Below are positions 1,174-24,030 of a stretch of 64,000 nucleotides of DNA, in pieces. Position 1 is the first letter of the stretch. Every line of letters begins with the position of its first letter. Both the position numbers and the translations under genes were made by a program. The notes beneath the pieces were generated by a model. That model ran no database searches. It was given only the letters and a program-made list of their open reading frames with translations, and had not been told where the DNA came from. Origin of the DNA: Asterella californica (lineage: Eukaryota; Streptophyta; Marchantiopsida; Marchantiales; Aytoniaceae); assembly GCA_036924285.1 (NCBI GenBank), contig JAYKYS010000002.1, positions 5,084,001-5,148,000 on the forward strand, given 5' to 3'.

Positions 1174-2109
1174 TGTAACGTTCGGCCGCATATCATGGAA
1201 TCGAGTTTTCCGTCTCTAGCCAATGAATCTCCGAACGTGAAGCTCCCTGAAGACTTGTGTACTATATTTGTATCTCCAGATCCAGTTCGTTAAACTTTTC
1301 GCTAATGAACACCAAGGATTGGATAACCGTCGGACGGATTTAGAATAACCAACTAGTCCTTAGCAGGTCTCTAGTACTAATCTCAGGTTTCAGAACACAA
1401 TGGAAAGTATTATGGGTCTGGGTTGGATAAAATTGAGGCAGCGCTTCCGCTACTGGTGATCAAGTCGGAACGCAATAATCCCTGCAGAACTACAGCCAGG
1501 ACTAGGAAGCCTAGTGGATGCTAGGAAGTAGGAAGACAAAGTAATTACACTGAAATAGAGTCAACTCCACACCAGACGCTTCAATCCAGCTTTGGCACTC
1601 AATCCAAGCTCACTTATCATATAACAAAGTCAATCACAGGCTCATATACATTACATGACGTTTTCTTGCTGACGAGGTCCCGACAAGCTCTTGGACTAGT
1701 AATTCTTCACTCTGAACGGCCCCTGATTTTCCACTCAAAGACTAAATCTCGAATTAACGATATCACTCACACTGGAATACCTCTGGTAATCTCAGCTTGC
1801 AACTATTGATCAACTGTCTGCTCTCTGGGTAATCTGGTCTAGGTTTCTAGTCTCCAATCTACACATGCCACTCTCCTGGATATTGTATACAGTCTTTGCT
1901 CAATTCCTCTGCCAACCACCAACCTTCCTGCTCAGTCTCTCTGCCAGCCAGAGACCCATCAAAACTCAAGTCAAAAAGTGAAAAGTTACAATGGGCGTTG
2001 TTAGGGTTCGCAATCCATTAACTAGTCTCTTCATGCTCTTCCATGTGACCTCGTAGCCGTCACGCGAAGTTATCTAATCACAGCCCTTTTAATAGTAAAC
2101 GGCGTTACA
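1174..2109 (-). repeat. Element A 3' LTR (in coding orientation)
   Basis: 936 bp, with TGTAACG at one edge and CGTTACA at the other (a 7 bp terminal inverted repeat). It matches 11256-12210 along its full length. It lacks a roughly 20 bp CTCTGC-rich stretch that the other copy has near 12000-12020. The inner edge on the coding strand is preceded by GTTGGGGCAAT (complement of 2110-2120), a weak candidate polypurine tract. Confidence 0.93.
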
Positions 2110-2510
2110 ATTGCCCCAACTAACAAAAAGCAGTTCTTCCACTGAACTGCGATACCTGCAATACCACGTTAGGAACAACATTTCTTCAAATCTAGAGGAA
2201 CATTACCCCATCCAGGATAAGGTTAAGCTCTTTCTCAGAGCTATGCTCCATCACCGAGCATTCATTGAAGCTTTCGGGTGAGACAGAACCCTAGCTTCCA
2301 GGTGGTGAACTCGTCAGTTTCTTTTTATCCACCTCCTTACTATGATACATCATAGTAGCGTTAGTGTAAACCTGATTGACATCCGACAGTCATAAGAAGT
2401 CAGCAGACCACAACTCCACCTTTAGACGAGCAGATTGGCCAGATCTACTCGGTTCCAATGTCCTTGAAGGGCCTTTTGCATGACTCTTCTGACTCGATTC
2501 AATCCACCGC

Positions 2511-4046: not shown

Positions 4047-5655
4047 GCTCTTCACTTGTGTCCTGAGTTGTTAACGCCTGGACACGTCTGCTTAACACAT
4101 CCGCTGGAGTATTTTCCTTCCCTTTTTGATATCGTCATTCGATATCAAAACGTGCAAGTTCCACTTGCCATCTCTGCTGTTTGCGAGACAAACGAGGTTT
4201 ACTCTGAAAGTATGTATTACCCTCGCAGTCCGTCACAACAGTAACCTTGCTTGGTAACAAATAATGCTCCCAACGCTTCAGACAATGCACAACTGCAAAA
4301 ATTTCTTGTTCATGAGCAGGCCATTTTGCTTCTGTTTCTGAAAACTTGTGACTTTCGTAAGCCACTGGATGCTTTCCTTGCATCAACACGCCTCCAATGG
4401 CCCATTGAGAAGCATCTGTGTGAACTTCGAAAGGTTCTCCCATCTTTGGAAGAGCTAGCACGGGCATCTCTGTCAGTGCTTGTTTCAACTCTTGAAACGT
4501 TCTTTCAGCTGTTGGATTCCAAACAACCTTGGAAGCCTTGCGCAATAAACCAAACAAAGGTGCGGCTTTATGCGCAAACTGATAAATAAAGCGCCGAAAG
4601 TATGTAGCTAATCCAAGAAAAGATCTGAGCTCATGAACACTCTCAGGTCTCTTCCATTCAACAATGGCTCGAATCTTAGCCCTGTTATGATGAATACCTT
4701 ACGCATCGGTCAAGCATCCTAGAAACACCACACTCTCTTGTCCAAAAGAACACTTGCTCTTCTTGAGGTAGAGTTGATGTTCTTCCAGGCGCTTAAACAC
4801 TGTTTCAACATCTGCTAGATGTTGATCCCAAGTGGATGAGAAGATGATAATATCATCTAAGTACAAGATAACGCTCTCATCCAAGAGATCTCTGAAGATC
4901 TCATTCATCAACCTGCAAAAAGTACTAGGTGCATTGGACAATCCAAATGGCAACACTGTATACTCAAACAAGCCATACCTCGTCCTTACAGCCGTCTTTT
5001 CTTCATCACCTTCTTTGATTCGAGTTTGATGATATCCAGAACGAAGATCTAACTTGGTGAAGTACCTTCCTGTGGTCAACCGATCAGTGGTTTCATCCAT
5101 GAGAGGAAGAGGGTACTTGTTCTTGACAGTAACTTTATTGAGTGCACGATAGTCCGCACACATGCGAATACCACCGTCTTTCTTGGTCACGAATAACACC
5201 GGGGCAACATAAGGTGATATACTGGGCCGTAAGATACCCTGAGCTACCAACTCTTTCAACTGAGTCTTAAGCTCTATGAGCTCATCAAACGACATACGTC
5301 TTGATGACACTGCAATAGGTGTAGCCCCAGGAACCAGATCAATAGCATGATCCAAGGCTCTCCTCGGAGGAAGTCCTGTTGGTAACTGGTACGGCATTAT
5401 GTGAGAATATCTCTCAATCAATGCTTGCATATCAGGATGTATGAGAAGAGCAACAACCCGTTCTTCCTCATCCGTCTCCACCTTGGGCTTAGACATCATT
5501 GCAACCCAAGCTTCGTCTACTGACTTGATCTGCTTTCCAAACTGTCTGGCTGTGCAGATCTGAAATGCCACCTTGGCTCGTTGGAACTTTCGAGCAGCAT
5601 GGTTTGGCTCCTTGGGTCTCTCTTTGATGATCAAAGGATGTGGTTGACCCAAGCC
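4047..5655 (-). pseudogene. Element A reverse transcriptase and RNase H (broken)
   Basis: The RT frame (4699-5652) contains P-Y-V-A-P-V-L-F-V-T-K-K-D-G, R-M-C-A-D-Y-R-A-L-N, T-K-L-D-L-R-S-G-Y-H and the catalytic box Y-L-D-D, all standard for Ty3/gypsy. A TAA at 4699-4701 interrupts the connection to RNase H. RNase H (4135-4557) is seen from H-T-D-A-S-Q-W-A-I-G-G-V-L onward and ends at a TGA near 4132-4134. After that the frame continues with K-G-K-E-N-T-P-A-D-V-L-S-R. A one-base frameshift near 4045 separates it from integrase. Family knowledge: RT and RNase H copy the element RNA into DNA. The stop codons show that this copy is dead. Confidence 0.9.
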
Positions 5656-6384
5656 TCATCGATCCATGACTACGACGTTCCCTTCTTGCACATCTAGCTT
5701 TGCCTTGGTCTCTTGTAACCAAGACCATGACAAGATATCCTCCATCGTGTCACCTAAGCTCATAACTAAAAACTCATGCTTCCCAGTTACCCCTCCAACA
5801 GTAATAGGACCACTCATGAGCTTTTTTGTAACGGTTGTGCTGCCTTGCACAAACCTTATCAACAATGGGCTCATGATCTTGATTCTAGTCACCCCCAAGG
5901 TCTTGACTAGTTTTTCATCCAAGAGATTCACATCTGCTCTAGTATCAATAAGCAAACAACACCGGTGGTTTCCTATTTTCACTTCAATCCACGGCAGAAA
6001 ATCCCCATGTTCTACCAAATGCTCACCAGCACATACCTCTGCTTCGGTAGTCGTCTCAACTGGTTCTTCAACACTGGTTGTCTCTTCAGCTATCAACCCA
6101 CGAACGTTGCTCGCTGTTGAACGTTGAGGACACTCACGAGCGATGTGATCATCTCGTCCGCATCGAAAACAGATGATCGTCCTTGAAGGTGTAGCACTGC
6201 TAGCTCCACTGCTCTTGGCACCTGAAGTCGAAGCTTGGTTGGATCCTGCATTGGATGCATAAGATCCTGTAGGTCGTGTCTGAGTGGGATCACGAGTGAC
6301 TCCTCGATGCTGAGAGCCACGAAGAAATCCTCTTCCAGATGCACCAAATCTTCCACCACCACGTTGTCGTGATGTGAATCATTT
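5656..6384 (-). pseudogene. Element A gag zinc knuckle and aspartic protease (broken)
   Basis: The frame begins in a Gly/Arg/Ser-rich linker (R-Q-R-G-G-G-R-F-G). It passes through a CCHC knuckle C-F-R-C-G-R-D-D-H-I-A-R-E-C (CX2CX4HX4C) near 6130-6170 and continues into the protease. The protease active site is expected as D-T-G but reads L-L-I-D-T-R-A-D, so the essential Gly is Arg in this copy. A TGA at 5656-5658 separates protease from RT. The upstream side, near 6385, is where element B interrupts gag. Confidence 0.85.
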
Positions 6385-6403
6385 GACATAGTAAATGATT
6401 CAC
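6374..6403. repeat. 11-bp inverted repeat at the left edge of element B
   Basis: GTGAATCATTT and AAATGATTCAC are perfect reverse complements separated by 8 bases. This sits where A's gag frame ends and B begins, so it may be a junction product rather than an element end. Confidence 0.5.
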
Positions 6404-7901
6404 TTATCACTGCTGTCGCGTTACTTAGCGCATGTTATTTCTACTCCGACACTTGACGTTTAGTAGTCTTAGAAGTTAGCTTTGTACTATTCTTAGTCTT
6501 TTATGCTTATGGTTGACACCTTTTGCATATGGTGTTAACTCTGTCAAATATTTTGGATCCTAGTAGGTTGGTAGTATGACATTTATCTTGTTCAAGCATT
6601 CGTACGCTTGTGCAAGTAAATTCATACTTATCTATGATACTCAATGTACATGACTTAGATTTACCATGTAGATAGGGGTTTGAAATCATGGGTTGTACTT
6701 ACTTGTCGTCCATGCACGCTTTCTAGCTGATTTAAGTTATTTTTCGGGGCTGCGTGTCGTTTTAGGTAGTTTAAGTTTTACGCTGGCACTCTAGGGAGCT
6801 TGACGTGGTAGCCTATGAGTAAAACTAAGTTGTCACGTGGTTTAGGGTACTAAAGGACAACCAAGTGGAGCTATGAACTCCCATTGGTCTATTTTTGTCT
6901 TTTGTTAAACTCTAAATTTAGAAACAGAGCTCTAGAGTGGAGTTCGAGCAATTTGTGAGGGTACTGCGAAATCTGAGAGCACAGGGAGATAGAGCTCGTC
7001 GAGCCAAGCACTGTCAGCGAAAAGTTTGATCGATTTGGAGCAATAAACAAGGAGTTATGGCTGATTGAAGTTCGATTTGTGTCAGAATTGAAGCACTTCT
7101 GTTCAATTTGGGGTTTTGAGTGTCATTTGCAGCAGAATCGTGGAAATCGCTTCAAAACTTCGTGGCTGTGTTCACTGTCAGCAGGGCTACGACTGTCTCC
7201 AAATTTTCATGTCAATTGAGTCAGTGAGTAATTCAGGGCGACCGCTGAAGTAGAGGGGGTCCAAAAAGCTCTCAATCTGGAGCAGCAACTTCAGAGAGCG
7301 AGATCTGGAGTTCTGTGTGGAATCAGGAGGCCCAACTTCACAGGAGTGTTCAGCAAGCTGTGTACTGCAAATCCTGTAAGAAACTTTGAAATTGATCGAG
7401 CCAATCCCCTGTTCTAGGTCGAAATAGCTGTCTGGGTACCAGAAACTGCCGTAATTTCTCTACTCAGAAAGTTTCTGTTCATATCTTAGTGCTCTGAATT
7501 GATCTGAAGCTGAAATTTCGTATGTGTATCCAGTAGAACCTCATTTACATGTAGGAGGAGTTCTGAGGTCTGAACCTTCACATATTTCTCAATCTTGAGT
7601 GTCAAAGTTCGCCATCTGATCTTATCATTGCTAGTTAAGCTTGAACTTTGCTTCCTGAACTTATCAGAAGAGCCTGGAGACTTATATGAGTGTTTTCAGT
7701 ATCACCTTGAGACCTGAAGCCTATCCTGTGAGTAAACCAGCCACAGCCAGGAGCCCTACGCTTCCCTGAGTAGATTGCACACAGCCTTCAAGCTCATATC
7801 ATAGCCAGAAGGTTCGCCCTTCCCAGGAAGACTCTTGGTGCTTCCACTAAGAGCTCTTGGGGTGATTGATTGAGAAGGTTGAGTTGCTACAAGGAGAAGA
7901 G
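6404..7901 (+). other. Leader or LTR-like non-coding part of element B
   Basis: There is no coding frame on the plus strand. The stretch contains two pieces that recur in the scar at the other end of B: a purine tract ending GAGGGGGTCCAA at 7246-7264 and a 33 bp piece at 7803-7835. A complete LTR cannot be defined because no second copy is present. Confidence 0.5.
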
Positions 7902-8753
7902 ATGGATCGCAAGAGCGGAGCTGCTGCTGCTGCCTCTGGGGCTGGAGCATCAACGTCTACTACTGCACCGTCAACTACACCTGCGTCTTCTACAGCGACA
8001 CCTGCATCTGGTCTGGACACGGCTGAGATCTTGAAGACGCTTGCGGCCCTGGTCCAACAGCATCCGATCGTTGGAGGGGGTGAGTTAAAATCCACTAAGG
8101 CTTTGCAAGCGATAGTGAATAGGTGTGGAAGGTTTGAAGGTAGAGATATTTCTAGATATATGCGTGAGTATAGAGGAGAGATGGAGTTGGTTAGGGTTAC
8201 TGATGCTGAAATGATAGCAAGTTTTGAGTTAGCTGTCATTCCTGAGTTGCGGGACCAAGTTAGGGATGTACAGAGAAGAAATCTTGGAATCTGGATGAGT
8301 TTTGAGCGATCTCTTCGAGAGGAGTTTCTTGAGGAGGATTCAGAGAGAGTTACTAGAAGGACATTTCTAGATTGGGTTGAGCAGCAACCTGGTCGTATTA
8401 TGAGCCTGAGTGAGTTGTTGAGAGAGTTTGATCGGAGATACCGACAACTTTCAACTCTAGAGCGAATCACCCTAGATGCTAGGAAAACAGAGCTTTTCCT
8501 GCAGGCTACCGATGATGCTACGGCAGATCGGTTATGTTTTATGTTGGCCGATCGATCTACTGAGGGAGGTGTTACTATGGATTGGGGGAGAGTTGAGGAT
8601 GCTGTGGCTGTACTGACAAGGCAGAGTAGGGGAAGAGTAGCTGTGGGAGGACGTCCGCTTGCAGAAGTGGTCACTCCACCTTATGCTGCTCCTCAGTACA
8701 GTAACCTTTGGCCCCTGCTCCCAGACCTGTTGTCCCAGCTGCAGTTCCTTTGA
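7902..8753 (+). CDS. Element B Gag, N-terminal part
   Basis: I chose the ATG at 7902 (M-D-R-K-S-G-A-A) because it is the first ATG of the frame and lies just after the leader. The frame gives 283 residues. It opens with a low-complexity Ala/Ser/Thr region. An alpha-helical, charged gag core follows (about residues 50-250) with blocks such as R-D-I-S-R-Y-M-R-E-Y and L-D-A-R-K-T-E-L-F-L-Q-A. The same blocks occur in the element C gag (Y-K-T-E-L-F-L-Q-T), which supports homology. The frame ends by shifting, within 8695-8753, into the next one; the two were probably one continuous gag. Known role of Gag: packaging the element RNA into particles. Confidence 0.75.
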   Translation: MDRKSGAAAAASGAGASTSTTAPSTTPASSTATPASGLDTAEILKTLAALVQQHPIVGGGELKSTKALQAIVNRCGRFEGRDISRYMREYRGEMELVRVTDAEMIASFELAVIPELRDQVRDVQRRNLGIWMSFERSLREEFLEEDSERVTRRTFLDWVEQQPGRIMSLSELLREFDRRYRQLSTLERITLDARKTELFLQATDDATADRLCFMLADRSTEGGVTMDWGRVEDAVAVLTRQSRGRVAVGGRPLAEVVTPPYAAPQYSNLWPLLPDLLSQLQFL

Positions 8754-10189
8754 TGCCAGTTGTGCCAGCTCCAGCACAAAGGGCACCTGTTCAGAGACCT
8801 GCGGAGAACCATGGTCAACAGAATCAGATTGAAGACCTGATTCGGCAGATGCGAGAGCTGAAGGTAGAGCTAGCTGGATTGCAGAGAGAGCAGCCACCGG
8901 CGCCTGCTGCTGCACGTCCAGGAGGTGCTCCTGTCCGTAGGTGTATTTGGTGTGACAGTCCTGATCACTTCCGAGGAGACTGTCAAGAGCTCACAGCTGC
9001 TTTGCGAGATGGTGTGGTTCGCTATCAGAACGGTAGGCTGCACCTTTCTTCTACTGGAGAGCCGTTGAGCACGCAGTTTGGGCGAGGAGGCATGAGGAGT
9101 CTACCTCAGATTGCTGCGGCGGCAACTGTACATGCATTGATGGCACCACCGGTAAATCCTGATGTATATGCTGGACATATTGAGGTTTCTTCTAGTCCTA
9201 CGTTGCTAGATAGGACTGCTGAGAAGAGTATTGCCCCCGTTCCTTCTGAAGTACTGAAGAGGGGAGCCGAGTCTATTCGTAGGGTCACAGGATGGGGAGA
9301 TCCTGTAGATGCTGCTTCTATCAGAGCATTCTTGGATGTAGATAGACACGTTCATTGGCAAGATGCTTCTGTGGAGGAGAAGAGGCGGCGAGAAGCCTCT
9401 GAACTTGATACTGGAGTTCCTGAGGAGATTGGGGATAGACGGAGAGTCACAAGGAGACGAGCGGCTCTTCTTGAAGACATCCCGTCTACTTCTGCAGCTC
9501 CTCCACCTGCGCCAGGTCCTATGGAGGATGTGCAGAGATCCCAGCAGGAGCCAACGACTGCTGGTAGGTGGTTTACTGCCCAAGAGAAGGGGAAGGGACC
9601 GGCTTACAAGTTGGCAGCTGATATTGAAACTTCTACTGATCTGAAGAGTATCTTGGAGCAGAGGATACTGGATGCGCGAATCGAGTTTTCTCTTCGAGAA
9701 GTTCTTGGTATTGCAAAGAGGGAGTTTCACGAACTGATCATCGACATCATCAAGCGCAAGAGACAGGTGATGTCCGAGCAGGTAGAGAGTCAGATGATAG
9801 ATGTAGTAGGAGCTTCTCTGAATGATGCAGAGTTTGGAAAGGTGCATTTTCAGGAAGCTGATGACAAGAGATACCAGCAAGAAGCGTTGGTTGCTGGTAC
9901 CGACACTATTGAGTTCAACGATGAGGAAGCTGGTGAGGAGAGTCCAGCTAGTGAAAGCGATTTCAGAAAGAGACATTGGGCTCGTGCCACAACTGCTACG
10001 CGAGTTCGTCTTGGAAGTTTGGTTGAACCTGTTGCTGCTTTAGTTGATCACGGATCTGAGATCAAAATCATGTCACGGGAGGTGTACGAGAGGGGTCAGT
10101 GGCCTATCGAGCTAAACCATGGTTGGGTGTTACGTGCTGCGAACAACCAGAAAGGTGAGCTATACGGCGCTTGTCCTAACGTGAAGTAG
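8708..10189 (+). CDS. Element B Gag C-terminal part with zinc knuckle and protease-like domain
   Basis: The frame overlaps the end of the preceding one and gives about 490 residues, joined to it through a single frameshift near 8700. It starts with a Pro/Ala/Val-rich linker and a short coiled coil (I-E-D-L-I-R-Q-M-R-E-L-K). A zinc knuckle of the form C-I-W-C-D-S-P-D-H-F-R-G-D-C follows at about residues 79-92. A long charged region leads to a protease-like segment at the end: A-A-L-V-D-H-G-S-E-I-K-I-M-S, then H-G-W-V-L-R-A-A-N-N. The D-H-G triad replaces the usual D-T/S-G. Protein sequences with this arrangement occur in gypsy-like elements of some mosses and fungi, as I recall the family. 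The frame is cut at 10189 just before the scar at 10182-10260. Confidence 0.75.
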   Translation: MAPAPRPVVPAAVPLMPVVPAPAQRAPVQRPAENHGQQNQIEDLIRQMRELKVELAGLQREQPPAPAAARPGGAPVRRCIWCDSPDHFRGDCQELTAALRDGVVRYQNGRLHLSSTGEPLSTQFGRGGMRSLPQIAAAATVHALMAPPVNPDVYAGHIEVSSSPTLLDRTAEKSIAPVPSEVLKRGAESIRRVTGWGDPVDAASIRAFLDVDRHVHWQDASVEEKRRREASELDTGVPEEIGDRRRVTRRRAALLEDIPSTSAAPPPAPGPMEDVQRSQQEPTTAGRWFTAQEKGKGPAYKLAADIETSTDLKSILEQRILDARIEFSLREVLGIAKREFHELIIDIIKRKRQVMSEQVESQMIDVVGASLNDAEFGKVHFQEADDKRYQQEALVAGTDTIEFNDEEAGEESPASESDFRKRHWARATTATRVRLGSLVEPVAALVDHGSEIKIMSREVYERGQWPIELNHGWVLRAANNQKGELYGACPNVK

Positions 10190-10260
10190 AGGGGGTCCAA
10201 GTATACGGCGCTTGTCTTAACAGCTAGAAGGTTCGCCCTTCCCAGGAAGACTCTCAATCC
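10182..10260 (+). repeat. Patchwork scar made of copies of nearby sequence
   Basis: Three consecutive blocks copy local sequence. 10182-10200 equals 7246-7264 (19 of 19 bases). 10202-10221 matches 10161-10180 (19 of 20). 10222-10254 matches 7803-7835 (32 of 33). A shorter match follows (10251-10259 with 7269-7277). This is the pattern of templated filler DNA at a repaired break, or of template switching during reverse transcription. It forms the right end of element B. Confidence 0.75.
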
Positions 10261-11205
10261 GACAACGTCCTCTACCACCTCTACTCTAAGAGGACGCTAT
10301 CTGTCTTTGAGGATTGCGCCAAAATCCTCTACTAGGCTCGCCACCACTTGTTCCACGTTGAAACTTGGAGAGCTGCACGGTGTAGTTACGTTCCCTAGTG
10401 TTCTCTGCTGCTTCCAAAAATGCAAACAAGTCTTGCATGTCCTCGGACTTGTGAAACATAACCTAGCTATCAAACACACTAGCATAGAAACCCTGCAGAC
10501 TTTTCTTCAAGTGAAACAGCAAGTCGGTGCGATCCACCATGTGCAAACGAGTAACCAACTCAGAAAATCGTTGGAGATACTGCCTGATATTCCTTGTCTG
10601 TCTCAGATGAATGAGCTCTAGTTGAAACTGTGTAGCTTTATCTACTGGTACTAAATGTCGTCAAAGCTCATCTTTCAACTCCGGCCAAGTGAACATAGGA
10701 GTTGTACCGTTCAAACTCCTCATCCGCTGTTGGCCTCCATATCATTCCTTCGCCTCTCTTTACAGTCTACTAATAGCATAGGTGAACCAACTACGTTCAT
10801 CGAAATTCTCCAAGTAATTCTCCATCTCAATAACCCATAACTCAAACCTAGAAAAGCTTTCTCACCGTTGAAGGATGATGGCGTTGTTGGTTGAGCCCAC
10901 TTCACTTTCCGCTTGTGCCCTTCTTTGGCTGAGCTGTCTTCCACAACATTCTCTTGCGCCTTCTGTCACCCATCTTCATTCTTATCTGCTTGAGTAGCAT
11001 CAACTGCTCCTTCACCCAGCAATGCTAAATCCTTGACTTGCTCAGTTTGTGGTACGGGGACCTCTGCTTCCTTCTCCTGTGTCGCTTTTGCTTGCGCTAA
11101 ATCCGCCTTAAGCACCTTGTTCTCAGCTTCTACTTGCTCAAGTCTGCCTTCCAACTTCTTCAGAAACGCCTTCATCTCGTCCATCCCAGTCGGCACAGCT
11201 TCCAT
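10261..11205 (-). pseudogene. Element A gag, N-terminal part (broken)
   Basis: The frame begins at an ATG at 11203-11205 (M-E-A-V-P-T-G-M-D-E-M-K), 38 bases inside the 5' LTR edge. It opens with a coiled coil (L-E-G-R-L-E-Q-V-E-A-E-N-K) and continues into a retrotransposon gag core with F-N-G-E-K-A-F near 10860. Several frame changes follow between 10300 and 10950. Near 10320 the sequence enters a basic Gly/Arg linker (R-G-F-W-R-N-P-Q-R-Q), which continues past element B at 6384. A TAG near 10290 is in the gag frame. The layout matches a Ty3/gypsy gag, disabled by shifts, stops and the nested insertion. Confidence 0.75.
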
Positions 11206-11241
11206 TGTCGATGGTGTTCAGCAAAGATTCAACCTGAACCT

Positions 11242-11253
11242 GCTCTGATACCA
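11242..11253 (-). other. Primer-binding site of element A (initiator-Met tRNA)
   Basis: On the coding strand the sequence is TGGTATCAGAGC, two bases from the LTR end. It is the standard complement of the plant initiator-Met tRNA 3' end, and it fixes 11256-12210 as the 5' LTR. Confidence 0.9.
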
Positions 11254-11255
11254 AC

Positions 11256-12210
11256 TGTAACGTTCGACCGTAGATCACGGAATCGAGTCGTCCGTCTCTA
11301 GCCAATGAATCTCCGAACGTGAACCTCCCTGAAGACTTGTGTACTATATTTGTGTCTCCAGATCCAGTTCGTTAAACTTTCCGCTAATGAACACCAAGGA
11401 TTGGATAACCGTCGGACGGGTTTAGAATAACCAACTAGTCCTTAGCAGGTCTCTAGTACTAATCTCAGGTTTCAGAACACAATGGAAAGTATTCTGGGTC
11501 TGGGTTGGATAAAATTTAGACAGCACTTCCGCTACTGGTGATCAAGTCGGAACGCAATAATCCCTGTAGAACTATAGCTAGGACTAGGAAGCCTAGTGGA
11601 TGCTAGGAAGTAGGAAGGCAAAGTAATTACACTGAAACAGAGTCAACTCCACACCAGACGCTTCAATCCAGCTTTGGCACTCAATCCAAGCTCACTTATC
11701 ATATAACAAAGTCAATCACGGGCTCATATACATTACATGGCGTTTTCTTGCTGACGAGGTCCCGACAAGCTCTTGGACTAGTAATTCTTCACTCTGAACG
11801 GCCCCTGATTTTCCACTCAAAGACTAAATCTCAAATTAACGATATCACTCATTCTGGAATACCTCTGGTAATCTCAGCTTGCAACTATTGATCAACTGTC
11901 TGCTCTCTGGGTAATCTGGTCTAGGTCTCTGGTCTCCAATCTACACATGCCACTCTCCCGGATATTGTATACAGTCTTTGCTCAATTCCTCTGTCAATCA
12001 CCAGCCTCTCTGCTAGCCACCAGCCTTCATGCTCAGTCTCTCTACCAGCCAGAGACCCATCAAAACTCAAGTCAAAAAGTGAAAAGCTACAATGGGCGTT
12101 TTTAAGGTTCGCGGCCCATTAACTAGTCTCTTCAGGCTCTTCCATGTGACCTCGTAGTCGCCACGCGAAGTTATCTAATCACAGCCCTTTTAATAGTAAA
12201 CGGCGTTACA
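11256..12210 (-). repeat. Element A 5' LTR (in coding orientation)
   Basis: 955 bp copy of the LTR at 1174-2109, with the same TGTAACG and CGTTACA edges. An extra stretch near 12000-12020 is a short duplication of the CCACCAGCCTTC type. It would carry the element promoter; no TATA box could be assigned with confidence. Confidence 0.93.
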
Positions 12211-12215
12211 TGCTT
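12211..12215. repeat. 5-bp target-site duplication of element A (right)
   Basis: TGCTT, identical to 1169-1173. Confidence 0.85.
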
Positions 12216-12375
12216 GATCACACCTCTCTTACGATTTAGTCGCTTACTCACATCCCAAACTTGCATCAGGCTGCGAAATTGATAACTTCTCCATGTCACC
12301 TGATATGTCAACTGTACATTTCAGCTCCACTACACAGTAAGGATGACAGGTCAGTCTAGCGTGTTAAAGAAGTGC
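12211..12375 (+). repeat. Flank of element A, homologous to 23480-23600 (reverse)
   Basis: Joining 1132-1173 to 12216 onward gives a sequence closely matching the reverse complement of 23480-23625, including two spaced copies of CTTGATCACAC. The match continues through AACTGTACAT and GGTCAGTCT. The region is therefore one copy of an older repeat into which element A inserted. Confidence 0.75.
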
Positions 12376-15362
12376 AGGAAGTGAAATGCGTGTGAACGGA
12401 GAGTGAAAACTGAAGTGCATGAAACATTTTTCACGCTTAACGTTTATATTTTGATTCTAAAATCACCGCACTTTAAGTGAAACGAGAATGTAGTAGAATT
12501 GATGTAGAATCCATTAATATTGGACCACATATTCACCGTTTGGTAAGTTGGAGACTTGTTCTTGGATACGAGTGCTACGGAGTTGAATTCAAAAAGCAAT
12601 GTGGAGCAGATAGACCTACTAAATTGATATTCCACGGATTCTGAGAGCTAAATGTTGATCTGAGCCATAGAGGTCGTGAAAGAACTGTTTTCCAAGCGAG
12701 ACTACCAAGTACAACTAGCCATAGCATAGATCTGATAGAGCGGTTTGATCTTGAGAGATTCGACTAAGGTTCACAAATATATAGACGCTTTAGCCAAAAC
12801 TAATCTTTTTTAGCTATTACCTTGTCGATTACTATGTTTTCATACGCAGGAATACGCCCGCTAGCTGGATTTTGTAATAGAGGAGACACGAGTCGATGTT
12901 TCTTCTCACATAAGGTACTATCAAGACGCTCTTGCAACGATGCGAGCATTTGAGACCACGTGAACAAAATAAAATGCAAAACCAAAGTGTTGAGGATCGA
13001 GTTGGACGAGTATTTAGATGATTTGGCTAGTGTTGATAATGCATTGGACACGATCGTGGACAAGCTAGCTCGGTTCTACTCGATATTAGAACGAGGATAG
13101 AGTCATTGACATTAATAAAAGAGGATGTTGAGTTCATTATTTTTTCCAGTTGTTGCACATTTTGATCTCTCCGACACCTTGTGATTTAAGTTGTGATGAA
13201 AAACATGCTACTAAATGCATAGATATGTTATCCGCATTTCAAATAAGCCTCTATATTGTTATGAACCATTTTGAGTACTTCAAAATAATAAGAATGATGC
13301 AAATCTCTGGCTTACTTGCAGTTCACACAGAAAGATAATTTTGAGTAGGTATAAATAGTGATCATGTTGCAGATTGGATGCGCACTCGCAGTTCACATAG
13401 AGAACCCAGACAGATGGTTTGAAAGAGCACCTTCGCATGCTTGCAGGCTATCCGTTAGCATGATGATGGTTATAATTGAGTGCATGAGTCTCTCATGAGT
13501 CTAATCACACCTTCTAGTCACATGGTTATTTACTGCTTTGCAAAATATGTACTTCGCTCACTTGCTTGAGAGTGGATAACGTAAGCATGAGACTCTGAAC
13601 CCGTTGTGCTATCCGCTACATGGGTTATAAAATACTGCCAAGCTTAGCACTTTCCATGAAATTTTAGCAGATATTCACGTAAGTTAAATGGGAGCAAAAG
13701 CATGAAGCATGAATCAGATATCATGAAAGCATAAGCATGAATCAGATACCATGAAGCAAAGTATCATTTGGGCAAGCAAAGATCCTACAAAATCTCATGT
13801 ACATGTTCGGCACTTTTTACAACATCGAAAGTTTTAGAGACAAAAACATCTGAAGCAGTTTGAAGATATGTGTGAAGTACTCACTAGCACTATGTCAATG
13901 AGTAGTGGCTGAAGTAATCACTAGAATGCCGGGAGCAAGACGATACTCCACCATGGAAGTCACAAAAAACATGTTGAGAACTGGTATCCATAATCGTTTG
14001 AGAAATATGTACATGGAATATATGGAATCATATGAAATTCATCTCTACATTCTTCTCGTCGTTTGGGAAATGAAAATGAGATTCAGCCGAGTAGTACATC
14101 ATGGAAAGAGAGAATTCGACCAGCGGGTCACTGACAAAGATAAAATAAGAACCTTTTGGTACAATCACAAGTTTTGTATCAAAATTGATAGCTGCTAGAA
14201 GAGGTGAGCCATCTGGAGTGAATTATATCATTCTTGCTAGAAAGATGAATGCTTCATCACATGCGAATATGAATTTGTATTCGGCTCGAATAAACCCTGG
14301 TTTGAACGTGTCGTGCTCTTGCTCAGACGGTAAATCTCAATGGACATAAATAGCCGAGACATGTTGATAACTGCAAAGTGAATAGTTTTGCAAATATACA
14401 AGTTGAAGTAAACACAAGTAACTATGAAAAACAAGAGCTGCTTCGTAGCAGAAGCATGGCATGATGGAACATTGAACTGAAGTTGAAATGAATAGATTCA
14501 GTTTACTTCAGCATCACATGTCCAACTACATAGTTAGAGCAACAAGGTTGAAAACAAAATTCAATCGAATGATGCAAGCGTCATGATAGCTATAGTGAGT
14601 TAGTAAAAAGACAAGTGTGAATATCACCTCTTGTCAATGAAGAGGACATCAAGCTATTTTTCTCTTTGTAATGTTCGATGCATGTGTGAGGCCGATGCTT
14701 ATGCCATCAACAAGAGGAGGATCCACAAAATCCAGGTTCTCTAGATCTCCAGTTATGGTTAGCTCAGTGTTGGTTGTAACATGCGAGCCGGGACAAGTTC
14801 GCACATTATGGCTTGATTGGTCTACATCGACTGCATCGACCTGGCCCTTGGACGAACTCATCATTTTCTGTGTTGTGAATAGTTCTCGCTACATTTCTTA
14901 AAACGAGCACCTCAGGGCTCAAACGTTTCGACGCGTATTGTCTTTTCTCCGATCAACAAGAAGAATTGACGAGAGGCACGTAATGCGAAGAAAAAAGACC
15001 TCGGACTTTTTTGTCTGACTGAGTAGGGTTGTGCTTGACATAAGCTAACTCTTCCAAGTCTTCTTCTCTTACGGATCATACCGTGCTCATGTGAAAAATG
15101 ACTCACTTGTTCATCATTCACAAGAAATTTTGTTTCCAGTACCCATCGAGCTCTGGCATTCGCAGTAGAGTTATCCTCTATGATAGGAGGAACTTGAGCC
15201 CTTGTATTGTTAGAAGTGTCTCTGCCTCGTGTTTGTGTAGCTTGGAAGAACTGTGTATCGTTGTCGATTCAGACCACTCTATGTCTACTTTTTTTTCTGA
15301 CAACTGGAGGAGACTCACACGTCCATAGTGACTCCAGGTCCCAGTAGTAGGTAGTGACTGAT
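12376..15362. other. About 3 kb without a recognised gene
   Basis: Only short open frames are present (for example 13905-14198 plus, 12800-13063 minus and 14671-14901 plus). None shows a recognisable motif. A small direct duplication of an ATGAATCAGATA(C/T)CATGAA word occurs at 13705-13760. The right edge at 15362 is an inversion breakpoint (see element C). Confidence 0.4.
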
Positions 15363-16953
15363 TAGCTCAAAGCAAGAGAAACTTCTCTTTGCTAACAAAA
15401 AGAGCTGCACCAGTATCACACGATTGAAACCCAAGTCCAAACCACATCCATGCACTAGCTCTTGGCTAAAGCTAGCTACTAGAAGCCATACACAACCAAC
15501 TAAGTCCCTAACGAACTCAAAAGACCAAAACCCGTAGCGAAAGAACGAAAAAAGACCTATCTGAGAACTTTCTTCTTTCGTCGAACGGTCTTCAAATGTT
15601 GATAGGGTCTCCTTCCTTGACTCTTTTGGCTCAAGAAACCTTCAGATCCGACTCCCGATAGTCGAGATATCGTCAATTTTTGGTCGCAGATGACCGAACT
15701 TTCAAAAACTCCTCCATGCGGCTTAAAACCGCACACACCGCACAAACGGATCGTCCAAACTGATATCCGTCTTCTCTGGCAGGTAGATCTAGCTACCCTG
15801 AACCCAACGAGGCTCCAAACAAGCCGTTTGGAGTTCCCTTTGCAAAACCACGCAAGAAATTTGATCGCAAGTTGTAAAAAACTGACGTAAATCAGCTCCC
15901 TACAGCTCAAACTTGCTCACCACCCCCAAACCAACAATCCAATTCACGTACAGTCTTCTCCTATGCGTAGATGAAGACTCCCTGATCGCGTAGGCACCAA
16001 GAACGAAGAGCTTGGCTCACCGATCCGAAGAACAACCCAATCTCAAGTCGCAGGTGAACGAAAATATGATGTAAGCGCTTCCCCGCGAGCCACTCAAAAC
16101 TCCTGAATCGCCCAATGAAAATCCGTATCGTCTTCAATTTCCTGTAGAACTCGGTGTTCTGATATCGATGGATCCAAGGACAGCAAGTTTGGACTCCGGA
16201 ACGGCCCCAACGGTCCAACTCTCCTTCACAAGTAACTGAGAACTCCAAATCTGCTTCCTGCGTCTCAATTTCTCTCAGTACACATCCCCCGATCCGCCTC
16301 TTCACAAACTGTCTTAACCAGTGCGTAGCCAGCACAGATCTTAACCCAACGACGCCTTGCGCGCTTGCATTGGACCTCCAAATCTCCCGAACCGTCCGCT
16401 TACAGGTCGCAGGTGCAAGCTAACCCCTTAAGTTGCCCCCTTACGTCAGTCTCTGTACGTACAAGGTTTCTGTGATAATAAAATGAAGCAGGCCCCTTGC
16501 GTCTTTGATATAACGCTTGAAGCTTCAAATACCCAGTCAGCAAGTAAACTAGGGCCTAGCTTGATTTTCCCTTCTTTCGAATCGCATAACTTTTCTAGTA
16601 GGTGTCCAAATGAAATAAACAAGATGCCCATGGAAAGCTGACAACGAGCTCTACCCATCTATGCGATAAAAGTGAAGATCCGAAGTTGTGCCAAAAGCCC
16701 GTAAGCTGGGACCTAGCTTGTTTTCTCCTTCTTTCGAGTCTTGTAACTTCTCCACTAGGCGTCCAAACGAAGTAGACAAAATGCTTATGGAATGTTGACA
16801 AAGAGCTCTATCCACTGATGCGATGAAAGCGAAGATCCGAAATGGTGTCAAAAGTCCGTAAGCAGGGGCCTAGCTTGTCTTTCTCATGAGTGTCTTTGGA
16901 GCGACAAGCATCGAAGTCTGAATTTCAGATAGGAACCGGTCCACGACACGACA
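15363..16953 (-). repeat. Element C 5' LTR, first 1.6 kb, inverted
   Basis: It is the reverse complement of 21266-22840. On the minus strand it starts TGTCGTGTCGTGG at 16953, identical to the right LTR start. The other edge, at 15363 (TAGCTCAAAGC), equals the point in the right LTR where the 18832-19100 piece takes over. Small differences and indels separate the copies. Confidence 0.85.
16480..16890. repeat. Tandem repeat of about 157 bp inside the element C LTR
   Basis: Words such as GAAGATCCGAA (16673 and 16830) and GGGACCTAGCTTG, GGGCCTAGCTTG recur at about 157 bp spacing, in two clear copies and one weaker one. A reverse-complement counterpart is present in the right LTR at about 21300-21700. 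Confidence 0.7.
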
Positions 16954-17579
16954 ACGCGTGTTACAAGAGAAGACTTTGGAGTCATTGTATGCAATGGTCG
17001 CTAGAGTGATGTTGGACACGAAATTTCAATCTTTTAAGGTTTTGGACTTTGCTGTGGATTGCTGGTGTTTCTTGAACAGCAGAGCATGTCAAAAATTAAA
17101 AGCTTATTCGAATTCCAAACTTAGAGTTTGCATGTATGGTGAAAAGACCCGTTGCGGTCAATCCATAGAGCAATGTACGGAGAATAGCACAAATACAAAA
17201 CCAAACTACTGACAAGGTCAACCCTAGAGCTTTCATGAGTACACACCGTGACGGAGATAGAGCGAGAGACAAAGTGAAGCTGCTTGACAAGATTCTACTC
17301 AAGTTCGACCTGGGAAAGCATCAGCAAACGGACAATGTGGAGAAAAAATTGATATCTCTCAGCTGGTCGGACTGTATTTTATGGAGCTCCTTATAGAGAC
17401 AGAGAAGTTCATGAACCATGTAAATGGAGAGTTCGAGCCCAGAGAGAGAAGTTCTCAGACGCATAACGATAATTGTTTGTGAGTTATAACACACATGGTC
17501 ATATGGCTTACTGACGGACATCAAATTCGAAATATTTGACAGTTATTATGTGCAATTGAGTTGCTATCGATCCCAATAA

Positions 17580-18720
17580 TCCTATTCGTAACCTGATGGA
17601 AGAAATTCGAACCAGTTACAACAAGCGAGCACCTACTATCAAGTATGGAGAAGTCATGAGCTTTCTCGTACTGGTTAGAAGATAACCTAACAGCTTCATT
17701 TCACTACATTCCATCAGTTTGTAGACAGATAAAAGACGTGGATCCTCATGTTGTTGTCAATTGAGACACATGAGAGTGTAGTCCACAAGAGTTCAATCGT
17801 GTTTTCGCGTGTCCGAGTGCAACTCGTTATGCGTTTAATTTCTGCCAAAAGGTGATATGTCTATATGCATATCACAACAAGAGTAGAAAATTCCCGTGTC
17901 AAATTTTCATCGTCTTTGTGCTTGATGGTCTGAATGAGGCCATTATTTTAGCATATGCAGTGACTCCACAAGAAGACACATCAAATTGGACATTGCTTTG
18001 TGATCTCCTTCAGGAATCTATACACTTGATTGTCTCTTCTCAAACAGTTATCATTAGTGATTGTCAAAAAAGCCTTGAGAAAGCTGTGGCAGAGATATTT
18101 CCAAGTGTTGTACATGGTGATTGTGCGCAACACATTCGCATGAATGTGCGCACATGATTCGAGAAGGAAGAAGAACAATCAAGTTTATCATGTTTTTATG
18201 CTCGAAATCAAGAACTATAAGCACGCATTGGTTTGAAGGTTGTAGCTACATGTTCACACTGTTACTGATTTTGTTTAAGGCATCATCAAGTATGATGAGG
18301 TGTTTTAAAAGCTCGAGGCTTCAAGAGAAAGAGGGCGTGGGTTCGGTGAATACTTGTATGGAATACAACATGAACGGTACAACCGCTGTGTATTTCTCTT
18401 GCCGCGTTACGTAAATATTACTTTGAATGTGATTGAAAGTATGAATAATACGTTAAAGCAAATTTGTTGGAATGCTTCTATGAGAATACTGCTGGATATT
18501 TGGTACTACATTATGCAACAATTTACAAAGCACCGAATGCATTTTTAGCAAGAGATCAATTTTCTGACTCATGTTGCTCGTAGACGACAATTCAAGAACG
18601 AGCAAGCGACAGAGGGGTTTCTTTGTCAAATCTCGAACATCAATGAAGCTACCGTTCGTTGTCATGCTAGTGAAAATAATCATGAAGTGAAGCATGGTGC
18701 AAGTGATAGAGGGCATGTTA
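17580..18720 (+). pseudogene. MULE (Mutator-like) transposase remnant
   Basis: The pre-catalytic part is visible from about 17590 (E-E-I-R-T-S-Y-N-K-R-A-P-T). It is followed by I-P-S-V-C-R-Q-I-K-D-V-D-P-H-V-V-V-N and F-N-R-V-F-A-C-P-S-A-T. The DDE domain reads F-V-L-D-G-L-N-E-A-I-I-L-A-Y-A-V, then V-I-I-S-D-C-Q-K-S-L and H-G-D-C-A-Q-H-I. The position where this family has the first catalytic Asp (usually D-A/G-T-H) reads L-Y-A-Y-H. Downstream are V-I-E-S-M-N-N-T-L-K and a SWIM-like C-L-E-Y-Q-E-M-G-W. There are stops near 17766 and 17775 and a frameshift near 18155. The transposase would have cut and joined its own terminal repeats; none can be assigned to it, because the nearby inverted repeats belong to element C. 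Confidence 0.8.
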
Positions 18721-18831
18721 CATGCTTAGAGTACCAAGAGATGGGTTGGTCGTCGTGTTGATAGAGAGGTTGACGAGAATCCAATCACTCGAGTGGATAG
18801 CATATGATATAGCTCGTCTCTTTTCAGCATT

Positions 18832-19100
18832 TACACTTCGGTGGTTTTGGGTCAGTGTTGTGATTCATGGGTTTGTATTAGGGGCTTTGAAGTAGGTTAC
18901 AGACCGCTCTGGTCTGTGCATCAGTTTTGTGCTCTTAGGAGAAAGAACCGGCAGTGTACATACATTTGGAGTTGGTATATATTGCGCGTTCGTTTTCGTG
19001 GTTGTTCTTCTCTGTCTTGTCTCTGTTCGACACACAACATCTCCACAGTCAGGAACCTCGTGTTTTCCTGGACATCCTTCACGTAATATCCGACACAATA
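18832..19100 (+). repeat. Element C 5' LTR, last 269 bp, direct orientation
   Basis: It matches 22839-23106 at about 93-95% by eye, from TAC(A/G)CTTCGGTGG to CCGACAC(A/G)ATA. Its left edge is where the inverted segment begins. Its right edge leads into the internal region, which starts TCGGTGGTGAACTCGACG. Confidence 0.85.
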
Positions 19101-19200
19101 TCGGTGGTGAACTCGACGTGAAGGTCCGAGGTGGAGATTTCTGTGTTTGAACTTGAAAGAAGAGATCAACAATCATGAACGAGGATGAAGATGGATATGG

Positions 19201-20615
19201 TTGTTCCGGAGGATGTTGCGGACCTGGGATGATGGATATGTAGATGCTTGGGATCATGAGAGGATGGGACGAGTCATGACTATGGACAGGATGGACGGAT
19301 CAAAAGGTATACCAGGGATGCAATTGGATGTAGCAACTGCACGATTGTTTCAAGCCTTCACTTTGTTTATGCGACAAGAGCAAGAGAACCAACAAAAGGA
19401 GGCTTTGGGGACGAAGGCGCTTCAGAGGGTGGTCGACAAGCTCGATCTATTTGATGGAGGAGACATCTCAAACTACTTGAGATGTTACAAAGACGGAGAT
19501 GGAATTGGATCAGGTATCAGAGAAGGAGATGATCGAGACATTCGGACTTACTACGGTACTTGAGATAAGGGAGCATGTGAAGGATTTAGCAAAGCATTTT
19601 GGGAGGAACTGGGATACATTTTCACATGCATTGATGGAGGAATATTTCTTGAGAAACTCAGATCGAGTAACCAAGAAATCATTTTTGGGATGGGTCAACC
19701 GACCTAGCAAGGGTTTATAGCTTACAGAGCTGTTAAAGGAGTTCGAGAGACAATTCTCTCAACTATCTCGAGTGGACAAGCTAACCTTGGAGACCTACAA
19801 GACGGAGCTGTTTCTTCAGACATAAGATGCAAGATCTGCAAGCTAAGGTTACTAGGTTGGAAGATAAAGGATCATCGATTGGGATGGAACTTGCACCCAA
19901 ACCAGCTTGCCTACATCAGTGTCTGTGGTGTGATGGTACTAACCATCAACGAGAAGATTGCATCGACTTTGCAGAGTCTTTGCAACGAGAGGTAATTTCT
20001 TGGGAGGATGAAAATGTTACATTCACAAGTACGGGTACTCTCCTTCAAGCCAACGTTGGTAAAGGAGGGATGAAGAAGTTTGTGGTTGATTACTTTGCGG
20101 CACATGCAGTTGTAGCTATCGAAGCTACAAGTTATGGTGCTAGGGTGGAGGAGATTGAGCAAGATCTCCATAGAGATGGTTTGGGTGAGCACGAGGATCT
20201 AAACGAGCTCAAGTTGGATGCTGCATCCACGATGCAGAGCGAGAACAAGAGACAAGAAGAGACTTCTTCAGGGAAGCAAGCTGGGGAGGATCAGGTTCAA
20301 CATGAAACTATTCTTCTTATACTGGCAATGGAGGACGATCCTTCACAACCGGAGGAGATGGTTGGGGTGCAGACAATGGATATGGGTGACCTAATTGTAG
20401 ACATACAACAACCAGATATTGATACAGTGATGGATGTGAAGGGAGGTTGGGAGGAGCACATTCGAGATGCACAGGTTGGGTTCCTATCACGGGAGGTCTT
20501 GGGTGCAACTTCAAGGAAAGTCCATGATGCCTACATTGACATCATCAAGGACGAACGACCTGCTAGGTATGACGGAGAGTGGATGGATGCTCTGGAGGCT
20601 ACGGGTATAAGATGA
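19201..20615 (+). pseudogene. Element C gag remnant
   Basis: It is homologous to element B's gag. Shared blocks are A-L-Q-R-V-V-D-K-L-D-L-F-D-G-G-D-I-S, T-Y-K-T-E-L-F-L-Q-T, and the zinc knuckle C-L-W-C-D-G-T-N-H-Q-R-E-D-C near 19920-19960. F-L-S-R-E-V-L-G near 20490 matches F-S-L-R-E-V-L-G in B. There is a frameshift near 19500-19560, and stops near 19718 and 19822. About 400 bases between the gag core and the knuckle are missing relative to B. The frame ends at 20615 before any protease. A short frame before it (from 19174, M-N-E-D-E-D-G-Y) stops at 19240 and may be a leader peptide or chance. Confidence 0.75.
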
Positions 20616-21250
20616 TGGGTAAGGATGACTTACATGGGAGAAGTCATTGCTGAAGGTGATTAAGATTGAGAGGATGATGCTTGGGAGGTTGTGAGGATTT
20701 TCAGAAAAAGCAATCAGAAATGATGATGGTTGAGGAGGATATCATTGTACAGCGAGATAATGATGGTTGCGATTGAGGATTTTACTTGCAGCAGTGTGGT
20801 TCTTTTTTTTTCAGAAAAACAAAAAAGAAGAGAAGATTAAGTACGATGACATGTATCGACTTGAGGTTGAGGATTACAGTCAGATATATGGTGATGATTG
20901 CGTTGACGGATGATGTCTACTACGACACTTGGTTCACAAACCTCGACGGTGAGATTCTACAGGGCGCATGGAAGACATTTCCATGGTATGATGAGTTATT
21001 TCTTCTTCTATGTCTTCACATATTGAAAGATGTGTAGATTTAGAGGGGGTGATTGGATGGGAAGTTCGAGGAGAAAGTCAATGAGCATGGATCTAGGGAG
21101 GATCATGGCAGGATAGCAACTTCAAGGTGACGATCAGGTTGCAACCTTGAGGATGAGGTTGACTGAGATGGGAGGGAGGATGACAAGATGGGTTGAGTGC
21201 CGGTCCACTCCTTGATTGGTATCTCTGGTGCATACCAGAGGATGTACAGG
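20616..21250 (+). other. Element C 3' internal region, non-coding
   Basis: It joins the gag remnant to the purine tract. No RT, RNase H or integrase motifs are present on either strand. Confidence 0.6.
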
Positions 21251-21265
21251 TTTGGAGGGGGTGGA
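21251..21265 (+). other. Polypurine tract of element C
   Basis: TTTGGAGGGGGTGGA directly precedes the LTR start at 21266, the expected position of the plus-strand primer. This is a main reason for reading 21266 as an LTR edge. Confidence 0.75.
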
Positions 21266-23106
21266 TGTCGTGTCGTGGACCGACTCCTATCTGAAATTCA
21301 GACTTCGATGCTTGTCGCTCCAAAGACACTCATGAGAAAGACAAGTTAGGCTCCTGCTTACAAACTTTTGGCACCATTTCGGATCTTCGCTTTCATCACA
21401 TCAGTGGATAGAGCTCTTTGTCAACATTCCATAAGCACTTTGTCTACTAGTGGAGAAGTTACAAGACTCGAAAGATGGAGAAAACAAGCTAGATCCCAGC
21501 TTACAGGCTTTTGGCACAACTTCGGATCTTCACTTTTATCGCATAGATGGGTAGAGCTCATTGTCAGCTTTCCATGGACATCTTGTTTACTTCATTTGGA
21601 CACCTACTGTAAAAGTTATGCGATTCAAAAGAAGGGAAAATCAAGCTAGGCCCTAGTTTACTTGCTGACTGGGTATTTGAAGCTTCAAGCGTTATATCAA
21701 AGACGCAAGGGGCCTGCTTCATTTTATTATCACAGAAACCTTGTACGTACAGAGACTGACGTAAGGGGGCAGCTTAAGGGGCTAGCTTGGACCTACGACT
21801 TGTAAGCGGACGGTTCGGGAGATTTGGAGACCCAATGCAAGCGCGCAAGACGTCATTGGGTTTAGATCTGTGCAGGCTACGCACTGGTTAAGACGGTTTG
21901 TGAAGAGGCGGATCGGGGGATGTGTACTGAGAGAAATTGAGACGCAGGATCAGATTTGAAGTTTTCAGTTACCTATGAAGGAGAGTTGGACCGTTTCGGC
22001 CGTTCCGGAGTCCAAACTTGCTGTCCTTGGATCCATCGAGATCAGAACATCAAGTTCTACAGGAAATTGAAGACGATACTGATTTTCATCGGACGATTCA
22101 GGAGTTTTGAGTGAAATTGGCTCGCACTTACATCAGATTTTTGTTCGCCTGCGACCTGAGATTGGGTTGTTCTTCACGATCGGTGAGCCAAGCTCTTCGT
22201 TGTTGGTGCCTACCCAATCAGGGAGTCTTCATCTACGCATAGGAGGAGACTGTACGTGAATTGGATTGTTGGTTCGGGGGTGGTGAGCAAGTTTGAGCCG
22301 TAGGGAGCTGATTTACGTTAGTTTTTTACAACTTGCGATCAAATTTCTTGCGTGATTTTGCAAGGGGAACTCCAAACGGCTTGTTTGGAGTCTCGTTGGG
22401 TTCAGGGTAGCTAGATCTACCTGCCAGAGAAGACGGATATCAGTTTGGACAATCCATTTGTGCGGTGTGTGCGGTTTTAAGCCGCATGGAGGAGTTTTTG
22501 AAAGTTCGGTCATCTGCGACCGAAAATTGACGATATCTCAACTATCGGGAGTCAGATCTAAAGGTTTCTTGAGCCAAAGGAGTCAAGGAAGGAGACCCTA
22601 TCAACATTTGAAGACCGTTCGGCGAAAGAAGAAAGTTCTCAGATAGGTCTTTTTCGGTTCTTTTGCTACGGGTTTCGTCCTTTTGAGTTCGTTAGGGACT
22701 TAGTTGGTTGTGTACGGCTTGTAGTAGCTAGCTTTAGCCAAGAGCTAGTGCATGGATGTGGTTTGGACTTGGGTTTCAATCGTGTGATACTGGTGTAGCT
22801 CTTTTTGTTAGCAAAGAGAAGTTTCTCTAGCTTTGAGCTACGCTTCGGTGGTTTTGGGTCAGTGTTGTGATTCATGGGTTTGTATTAGGGGCTTTGAAGT
22901 GGGTTACAGACCGCTCTGATCTGTGCATCAGTTTTGTGCTCTTAGGAGAAAGAACCGGTAGTGTACATACATTTGGAGTTGGTATATATTGCGCGTTCAT
23001 TTTGTGGTTGTTCTTCTCTGTCTTGTCTCTGTTCGGTACACAGCATCTCCACAGCCAGTAACCTCGTGTTTTCCTAGACATCCTTCACACAATATCCGAC
23101 ACGATA
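21266..23106 (+). repeat. Element C 3' LTR (intact)
   Basis: 1841 bp. It starts TGTCGTGTCGTGG and ends CCGACACGATA, giving an imperfect terminal inverted repeat of about 10 bases. Its first 1575 bp are the inverse of 15363-16953, and its last 268 bp are a direct copy of 18832-19100. Confidence 0.85.
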
Positions 23107-23136
23107 GCGCCCTACAACACGAACATTTATATTTTG

Positions 23137-23292
23137 TCATCTCCAACGCTCTAAAATGATCTCTTCCTCTTCATCCTCTGTACGTGCATCCATCTCAAAC
23201 TCCCTCTCCTCGTCGTCGAAGTACATCCAATCAAGACATTCATCCTCGCTGTCATTGCTTCGATCCTCATCTTGCAGTTGAAAACTTTTCAT
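23137..23292 (-). CDS. Small acidic open frame, function unknown
   Basis: 51 residues from the ATG at 23290-23292 to the TGA at 23137-23139. It is very rich in Asp and Glu (for example D-S-E-D-E-C-L-D-W and T-E-D-E-E-E-E-I-I). No domain is recognised. It lies between element C and the repeat copy at 23480-23625, and could be the tail of a decayed transposon protein or chance. Confidence 0.2.
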   Translation of the reverse strand: MKSFQLQDEDRSNDSEDECLDWMYFDDEEREFEMDARTEDEEEEIILERWR

Positions 23293-23479
23293 CGTTTACA
23301 GCTGATGTTTTCGATGAGACCAGAAGACAAGATGTGTGAAGTCTATAAGGTTTGATGTCTCACTTCCAAAGCTATAGGGTTCAAAGGTTAAATGTGTCCG
23401 ATGTCCAAACAGCACATCTGCAAGAACTAGAACATGTACAATCGTGCGAATGCTTCTGATATCCACATTGTTGTCAGAC

Positions 23480-23625
23480 TGATCCGTCATCTTGACTGTG
23501 AAGCTGGAGTTGACATGTACAGTTGAAATGGACAAGTTATCTATTTTGCAACCTGACTCCCGTCAAGAGTGTGATCAAGAGCAAGGAATATACTAGGGGT
23601 GTGATCAAGCAATTTTCTGCCATCC
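23480..23625 (-). repeat. Second copy of the repeat that was hit by element A
   Basis: The reverse complement contains TTGCTTGATCACACCCC and, 30 bp on, CTTGATCACAC. It aligns through both flanks of element A (1132-1173 and 12216-12375). It serves as an empty-site comparison for A. Confidence 0.75.
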
Positions 23626-24030
23626 TCACAAAGATGGGAAGGGTCTACCGCCAGTGGAGTGCAAGATGCGTAAAAAGAAAGTACCAGAGTGGCAAGAGGA
23701 AAACCGTCAAAACCTAACTACGGTATGTCCAGCTAACGCCCAATCCCTCTCGATAACGCCGTCCCCACCTTTTCTAGCTTCAGTTATAGAGGAGCTCAAC
23801 CGCGAAACTCTACTCCCCCTCCTGTTAGTTGAGTTTCCCTGTGGAATATGCACCTTCTGAAAATCTCTGGTGTTTTTTATGAGCTATGAATAATACGATG
23901 TAGCCAACTTTTATACAGCCTTCTTGAAAATTTTATGGCATAAGAAGATTTACTCAATTATCGAACTCTTTAATTTCAGTAAATTTACAAGGAAATTTAA
24001 CATTTTTATTAAAAGCCTCTTAACGAGTAA
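23626..24030. other. No recognised feature
   Basis: AT-rich sequence with only short open frames. It leads into the MITE at 24031. Confidence 0.4.

Follow-up and report, generated by a model that had tools for sequence, protein, structure and literature searches.

The 64,000-nucleotide stretch of Asterella californica DNA analysed here (the window; positions 5,084,001 to 5,148,000 of contig JAYKYS010000002.1, our C102) carries the transposase domain of a Mutator-like element (MULE) between inverted repeats of 1.6 kb. We found that the repeats are parts of the long terminal repeats (LTRs) of a retrotransposon, the second of two such elements in this MULE (LTR retrotransposon 2). According to our reading, to which we give a probability of about 0.95, a gag-only LTR retrotransposon was inserted in the MULE, and about 3.5 kb, comprising most of its 5' LTR and the adjoining MULE sequence, was then inverted through crosswise end joining. 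The inversion is fully resolved, with paralogues that keep the ancestral order on both sides. A nested insertion followed by a small inversion can mimic a DNA transposon with long terminal inverted repeats, and this is a pitfall for automatic annotation.

Arrangement of the LTR pieces

The segments 15363-16953 and 21266-22840 repeat each other in inverted orientation. The two arms aligned in four ungapped blocks (93-96% complementary), with 94.6% identity over 1574 aligned sites (BLAST E 0). Between them, at 17774-18157, lies a match to the MULE transposase domain PF10551 (E 2e-11; 44.6 bits against a cut-off of 27.6), in agreement with an initial annotation of this DNA, which had described long inverted repeats around a MULE transposase. 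Comparison with the LTR family in the genome showed that the right arm belongs to a complete 3' LTR on the plus strand (21266-23106). As also described earlier, it opens with TGTCGTGTCG at 21266, directly after the purine tract GGAGGGGGTGGA; it ends with CCGACACGATA at 23106. The right repeat had further been said to continue for 268 bp into sequence that is directly repeated at 18832-19100, and this was borne out: 22839-23106 recurs at 18832-19100 in the same orientation with 94.8% identity (18832-18996/22839-23003, 97%; 18994-19103/23000-23109, 90%). The end of the 5' LTR was placed at 19100 by eye, against the end of the 3' LTR.

When 21266-23106 was aligned to both left pieces, the pieces abutted at a single LTR position, with TA common to both (a 2-bp overlap), and TA was confirmed at both breaks. 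Of the left pieces, the one at 15363-16953 (minus strand) is the opening 1.59 kb of the 5' LTR turned round, and the one at 18832-19100 (plus strand) is its last 269 bp, uninverted. Their Kimura two-parameter distances to the 3' LTR were 0.0565 (15363-16953, 1574 sites) and 0.0550 (18832-19100, 268 sites), nearly equal, as expected for two halves of one 5' LTR. The proposal in the initial annotation that turning 15363-18831 round rebuilds a full 5' LTR, with a 2-bp TA overlap, thus agrees with both the distances and the junctions described below.

Ancestral order in other copies of the MULE

The genome (516.7 Mb, 773 contigs) was searched with the MULE middle, 16954-18831, which carries the transposase domain, stands on the plus strand and was inverted along with the LTR piece. 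The best 40 of 333 candidates were scored. Seven other copies showed about 80-87% identity, and the remaining matches about 65-73%. A search with 13400-15362 showed that this sequence, too, adjoins MULE copies, in the orientation opposite to that in the window. The uninverted join, with 18831-18833 leading directly into 15362 and lower positions as their reverse complement, was seen in four of the seven copies: C207:21172890-21178310, C154:60512-65889, C102:29326454-29331525 and a duplicated piece of C419:32283028-32291229. The gap between 18832/18833 and the reverse complement of 15355-15372 that follows it is 0-8 bp in each. On C419, where LTR-family sequence breaks up the main MULE stretch, the join stands in a 52-bp piece that is duplicated. 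The remaining three copies, of which C627 has two and C207 (from 30596954) one, align only as far as 18498-18678, short of the join, and are uninformative. Uninverted copies, the check that the initial annotation had called for, were hence found in all four copies that span the point.

The empty site of the retrotransposon was found, with long flanks, in six of the seven copies, where the sequence from 23107 upward, reverse-complemented, passes directly into 16954/16955. The seventh copy (C102) extends only about 10 bp beyond the empty site and then enters a rearrangement of its own. It follows that the flanks at 16954 and 23107 are two sides of a single uninterrupted MULE site. From the empty site, the target duplication of LTR retrotransposon 2 is 4 bp long, GCGT/GCGC in element orientation (left, ACGC at 16954-16957; right, GCGC at 23107-23110). 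Beyond it, 23107-23619 (minus strand) is the uninverted 5' end of the MULE, with the coding start and the terminal inverted repeat; this is the part joined straight to 16954 in the six copies. On the other side, the 3' part of the MULE (12216-15362, minus strand) also keeps its original orientation and is colinear with the C419 copy, and its right portion with the C207, C102 and C154 copies as well.

The initial annotation had placed the inversion within an LTR retrotransposon. The inversion and the break in the 5' LTR stand, but the second break is in the host MULE; its picture of a retrotransposon alone gives way to one nested in a MULE, as the empty site in six of seven copies shows. The same flanks bear on the idea of two separate insertions, a truncated inverted LTR that landed next to an unrelated element whose own 5' LTR is truncated. 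Adjacent or overlapping insertions of this LTR family do exist, for example at C526:15738001-15739500 and on C419. Two independent events are nevertheless highly improbable here, as the truncation points agree to 2 bp, the divergences are equal, the sequences past 16953 and 23106 between them make up a single empty site, and the MULE sequence is unbroken across the outer break.

True ends of the MULE

The whole MULE spans 1131-23619, not the interval 15363-23106 given initially, as judged from its terminal repeats and from colinearity with other copies. Its transposase was originally on the minus strand, and it holds two LTR retrotransposons and one inversion. Both termini carry CAGAAAATTGCTTGATCACACCCC, and 1131-1168 matches the reverse complement of 23582-23619 (38 bp, 92%); weaker similarity extends inward once LTR retrotransposon 1 is removed from the sequence. 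The flanking target duplications, CCATCCCC at 1123-1130 and CCATCCTC at 23620-23627, are 8 bp long with one mismatch. MULE target duplications are about 8-11 bp long, a range that includes this one.

With termini at 1131 and 23619, the 1.6 kb repeats are internal and are not the ends of the MULE. A MULE with terminal inverted repeats of 1.6 kb would account for the domain lying between long inverted repeats. We consider it next to impossible, since the repeats belong, as LTRs, to a large family that makes its own 4-bp target duplications, the real terminal repeats with their 8-bp duplication stand elsewhere, and the uninverted copies, which go on beyond 16954 and 18831 into MULE sequence, refute it; MULE sequence runs on outside both repeats in other copies. 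The initial annotation had named, as the case against its reading, other copies in which the 1.6 kb repeats flank the transposase; no scored copy has them as MULE ends. The copy on C419, in which part of the MULE is flanked on either side by LTR-family sequence, is superficially similar, but that sequence is at other positions, is 74-87% identical to the window LTR and has its own target site.

The element shares with Mutator-like DNA transposons (PF10551) the transposase domain, the terminal inverted repeats and the 8-bp target duplication. It differs in its decayed frame, its two nested LTR elements and its inverted inner part.

Inversion junctions and mechanism

At junction 1 (15362/15363) the MULE meets the inverted 5' LTR with a 4-bp microhomology, GCTA; in LTR orientation the join reads TTTGA[GCTA]ATCAGTC. 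At junction 2 (18831/18832) the MULE meets the rest of the 5' LTR with a 2-bp microhomology, TA, in CATT[TA]CACTTCGG. The ancestral LTR reads TTTGAGCTAC at the break, and GAGCTA occurs at the equivalent position in 15 of 15 LTR loci where it could be read (the other 15 of 30 loci gave no reading, mostly since the script read one strand only). The ancestral MULE reads CATTTATGCTAATCA at the break, as in L038, L039 and L053; L042 and L032 differ. Both joins give back ancestral sequence when 15363-18831 is turned round, with about 5 bp missing across them, and no inserted or duplicated extra pieces were seen at either. When random paired joins were simulated, 0.7% of the pairs reached 4 bp or more of microhomology at one join together with 2 bp or more at the other.

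Some points weigh against our reading. TTTATGCTAATC, taken as ancestral for the MULE at the break, comes from three of five loci and the C207 copy differs, so the 5-bp loss is approximate; an 8-bp stretch at the C207 join has also diverged. Moreover, the order is known from a single assembly. An assembly artefact that flipped 15363-18831 could be imagined, the arms being 94.6% identical and 4.3 kb apart. A flip through inverted repeats would switch within arm sequence, whereas the actual breaks are at one arm end and in the MULE. They are in single-copy context, with microhomology and about 5 bp lost, and the window contains no Ns, which is unlike repeat-driven misassembly. We therefore hold an assembly error to be very unlikely.

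The gag-only, non-autonomous retrotransposon first entered the resident minus-strand MULE, on the plus strand, with a 4-bp target duplication. Two later double-strand breaks would have cut the 5' LTR (between the equivalents of 22838 and 22841) and the MULE 1.88 kb upstream. Crosswise end joining at the GCTA (4-bp) and TA (2-bp) microhomologies, with about 5 bp lost, would then have inverted 15363-18831. The short microhomologies and the small loss fit end joining after two breaks, and we infer this kind of repair in preference to a template switch during DNA replication. Template switching would also be expected to leave short microhomologies; it appears unlikely, as a simple balanced inversion with small losses requires no copying and the joins are free of extra pieces.

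A comparable situation is presented in parts of the study of maize centromere 10 (PMC4806543), where inversions in nested, rearranged retrotransposon DNA are ascribed to double-strand-break repair. The likeness to the passages concerned extends to nested rearranged retrotransposons, microhomology at many joins and a proposal of break repair. The inversions described there are large and centromere-proximal; the inversion in the window is 3.5 kb long, its two joins are known to the base, and paralogues prove the ancestral order. As far as those parts of the maize study go, the window provides a further example of a known break-repair rearrangement in nested plant retrotransposons.

LTR retrotransposon 2 and its family

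The internal region of LTR retrotransposon 2 (19101-21265, plus strand) is gag-like and ends in a polypurine tract. A zinc-knuckle CCHC motif, CLWCDGTNHQREDC, of the pattern CX2CX4HX4C, was found by eye in the frame 19785-20615. Neither of the plus-strand frames of 19189-20615 gave a Pfam match, and pol domains were not found there. The gag frame 19785-20615, searched as protein, gave no match at E 0.001 among 472 candidates. When the genome was searched with the internal region (best 40 of 3331 candidates scored), this region was about 2.4 kb in other copies (2408 bp in one related copy), of which the window lacks about 250 bp. A region of about 2.4 kb leaves no room for pol. LTR retrotransposon 2 is a gag-only non-autonomous element.

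The element has paired LTRs, a TG start and a short target duplication, while its LTRs end in TA rather than CA. The ten bases GGAGGGGGTGGA before 21266 are identical to those preceding the 3' LTRs of two related elements (L020 and L021), and CGGTGGTGAACTCGACG, a candidate for the primer-binding site, stands 3' of the 5' LTR in four other family elements. The family is large: a search with the 3' LTR gave 8856 candidates, the best 40 of which, when scored, gave 57 matches. Elsewhere its LTRs are solitary or occur in pairs enclosing the gag region, at many places. Target duplications are 4 bp long. Among 30 loci, with 14 minus-strand loci left unread, eight insertions had both ends read (four exact, three with one mismatch, one unmatched).

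Gag-only non-autonomous LTR retrotransposons are known as the TR-GAG kind. The window element resembles them in its LTR pair, polypurine tract, gag-like frame with a CCHC motif and lack of room for pol. It is set apart by its LTR of 1.84 kb, 4-bp target duplications, LTR end GATA and gag frames without a Pfam match.

Other inversions and the LTR break site

Among the elements scored in the search with the internal region, one other has a switch of strand in that region, an independent inversion. At C313:23164301-23168300 (L071), LTR sequence equivalent to 22855-23106 and internal sequence equivalent to 19107-19534 are inverted (C313:23166404-23167102), and 18 bp lost at the LTR break cover the break position of the window. 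Two random breaks in an 1841-bp LTR would be this close in about 2% of cases; the coincidence was noticed in passing and is a lead rather than a test. Were it to prove general, the shared LTR break site would offer a naturally occurring fragile site for study. Inversions of their own are also present in two of the seven other MULE copies (C154 and C102). In three further LTR elements that lack the 5' internal part no inversion was found; two (C729 and C526) are plain deletions from LTR to internal region, which counts against a general tendency to invert, and the one on C92 is unexplained. That the LTR family has a recurrent break site (equivalents of 22836-22855, in the window and on C313), and that small inversions are unusually frequent in the decaying transposons of this genome, is doubtful.

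The hairpin AAGAGAAGTTTCTCTT of the 5' LTR, which lies a little upstream of the break, found no support as a source of fragility: a DNA-energy scan gave stronger hairpins elsewhere in the LTR, the strongest at LTR position ~1095-1134, and this one was outside the six best. A break at the LTR transcription start was also considered; the TATA-like stretch TATATATT near 22984, found by eye, is about 145 bp downstream of the break, which places the break more likely upstream of the start. Three neighbouring LTRs on C313 (15631412, plus; 15635344 and 15639811, minus) had been suspected of a similar inversion. The first is an intact LTR flanked by ACGG/ATGG. The other two, judged only by their strand and their spacing of 4.5 kb, resemble an ordinary pair.

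The C154 copy (C154:64074-64389; L039, L059) has a separate inversion of about 320 bp. It involves the part that matches window 14763-15246, and a little sequence was lost at each join. In the C102 copy (C102:29316822-29330025; L038, L041, L044), a part corresponding to 16954-17411 lies inverted relative to the rest and has a break near 17411/17419; about 10 kb separate two MULE pieces. On C92 (C92:1190142-1190400; L074), the end of the internal region with the polypurine tract stands before the internal middle in the same orientation, an order that is unexplained. At C419:32285161-32285317, about 160 bp of the MULE are duplicated beside an old LTR copy.

Other features within the MULE

At 14900-15058 the window has 159 bp that are not in the other MULE copies; parts of it match many places at 90-98%, and it is probably a small insertion. 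LTR retrotransposon 1 (1174-12210, minus strand) is inserted within the left terminal repeat of the MULE. Its LTRs (1174-2109 and 11256-12210) are 94% identical, and its target duplication is TGCTT (1169-1173 and 12211-12215). It contains minus-strand frames for RVT_1 (4699-5655) and for a zinc knuckle with an aspartyl protease (5656-6378). Within this element, a DUF4100 frame on the opposite strand lies between 33-bp direct repeats (97%) at 7803-10254, and its best named relatives are from Riccia.

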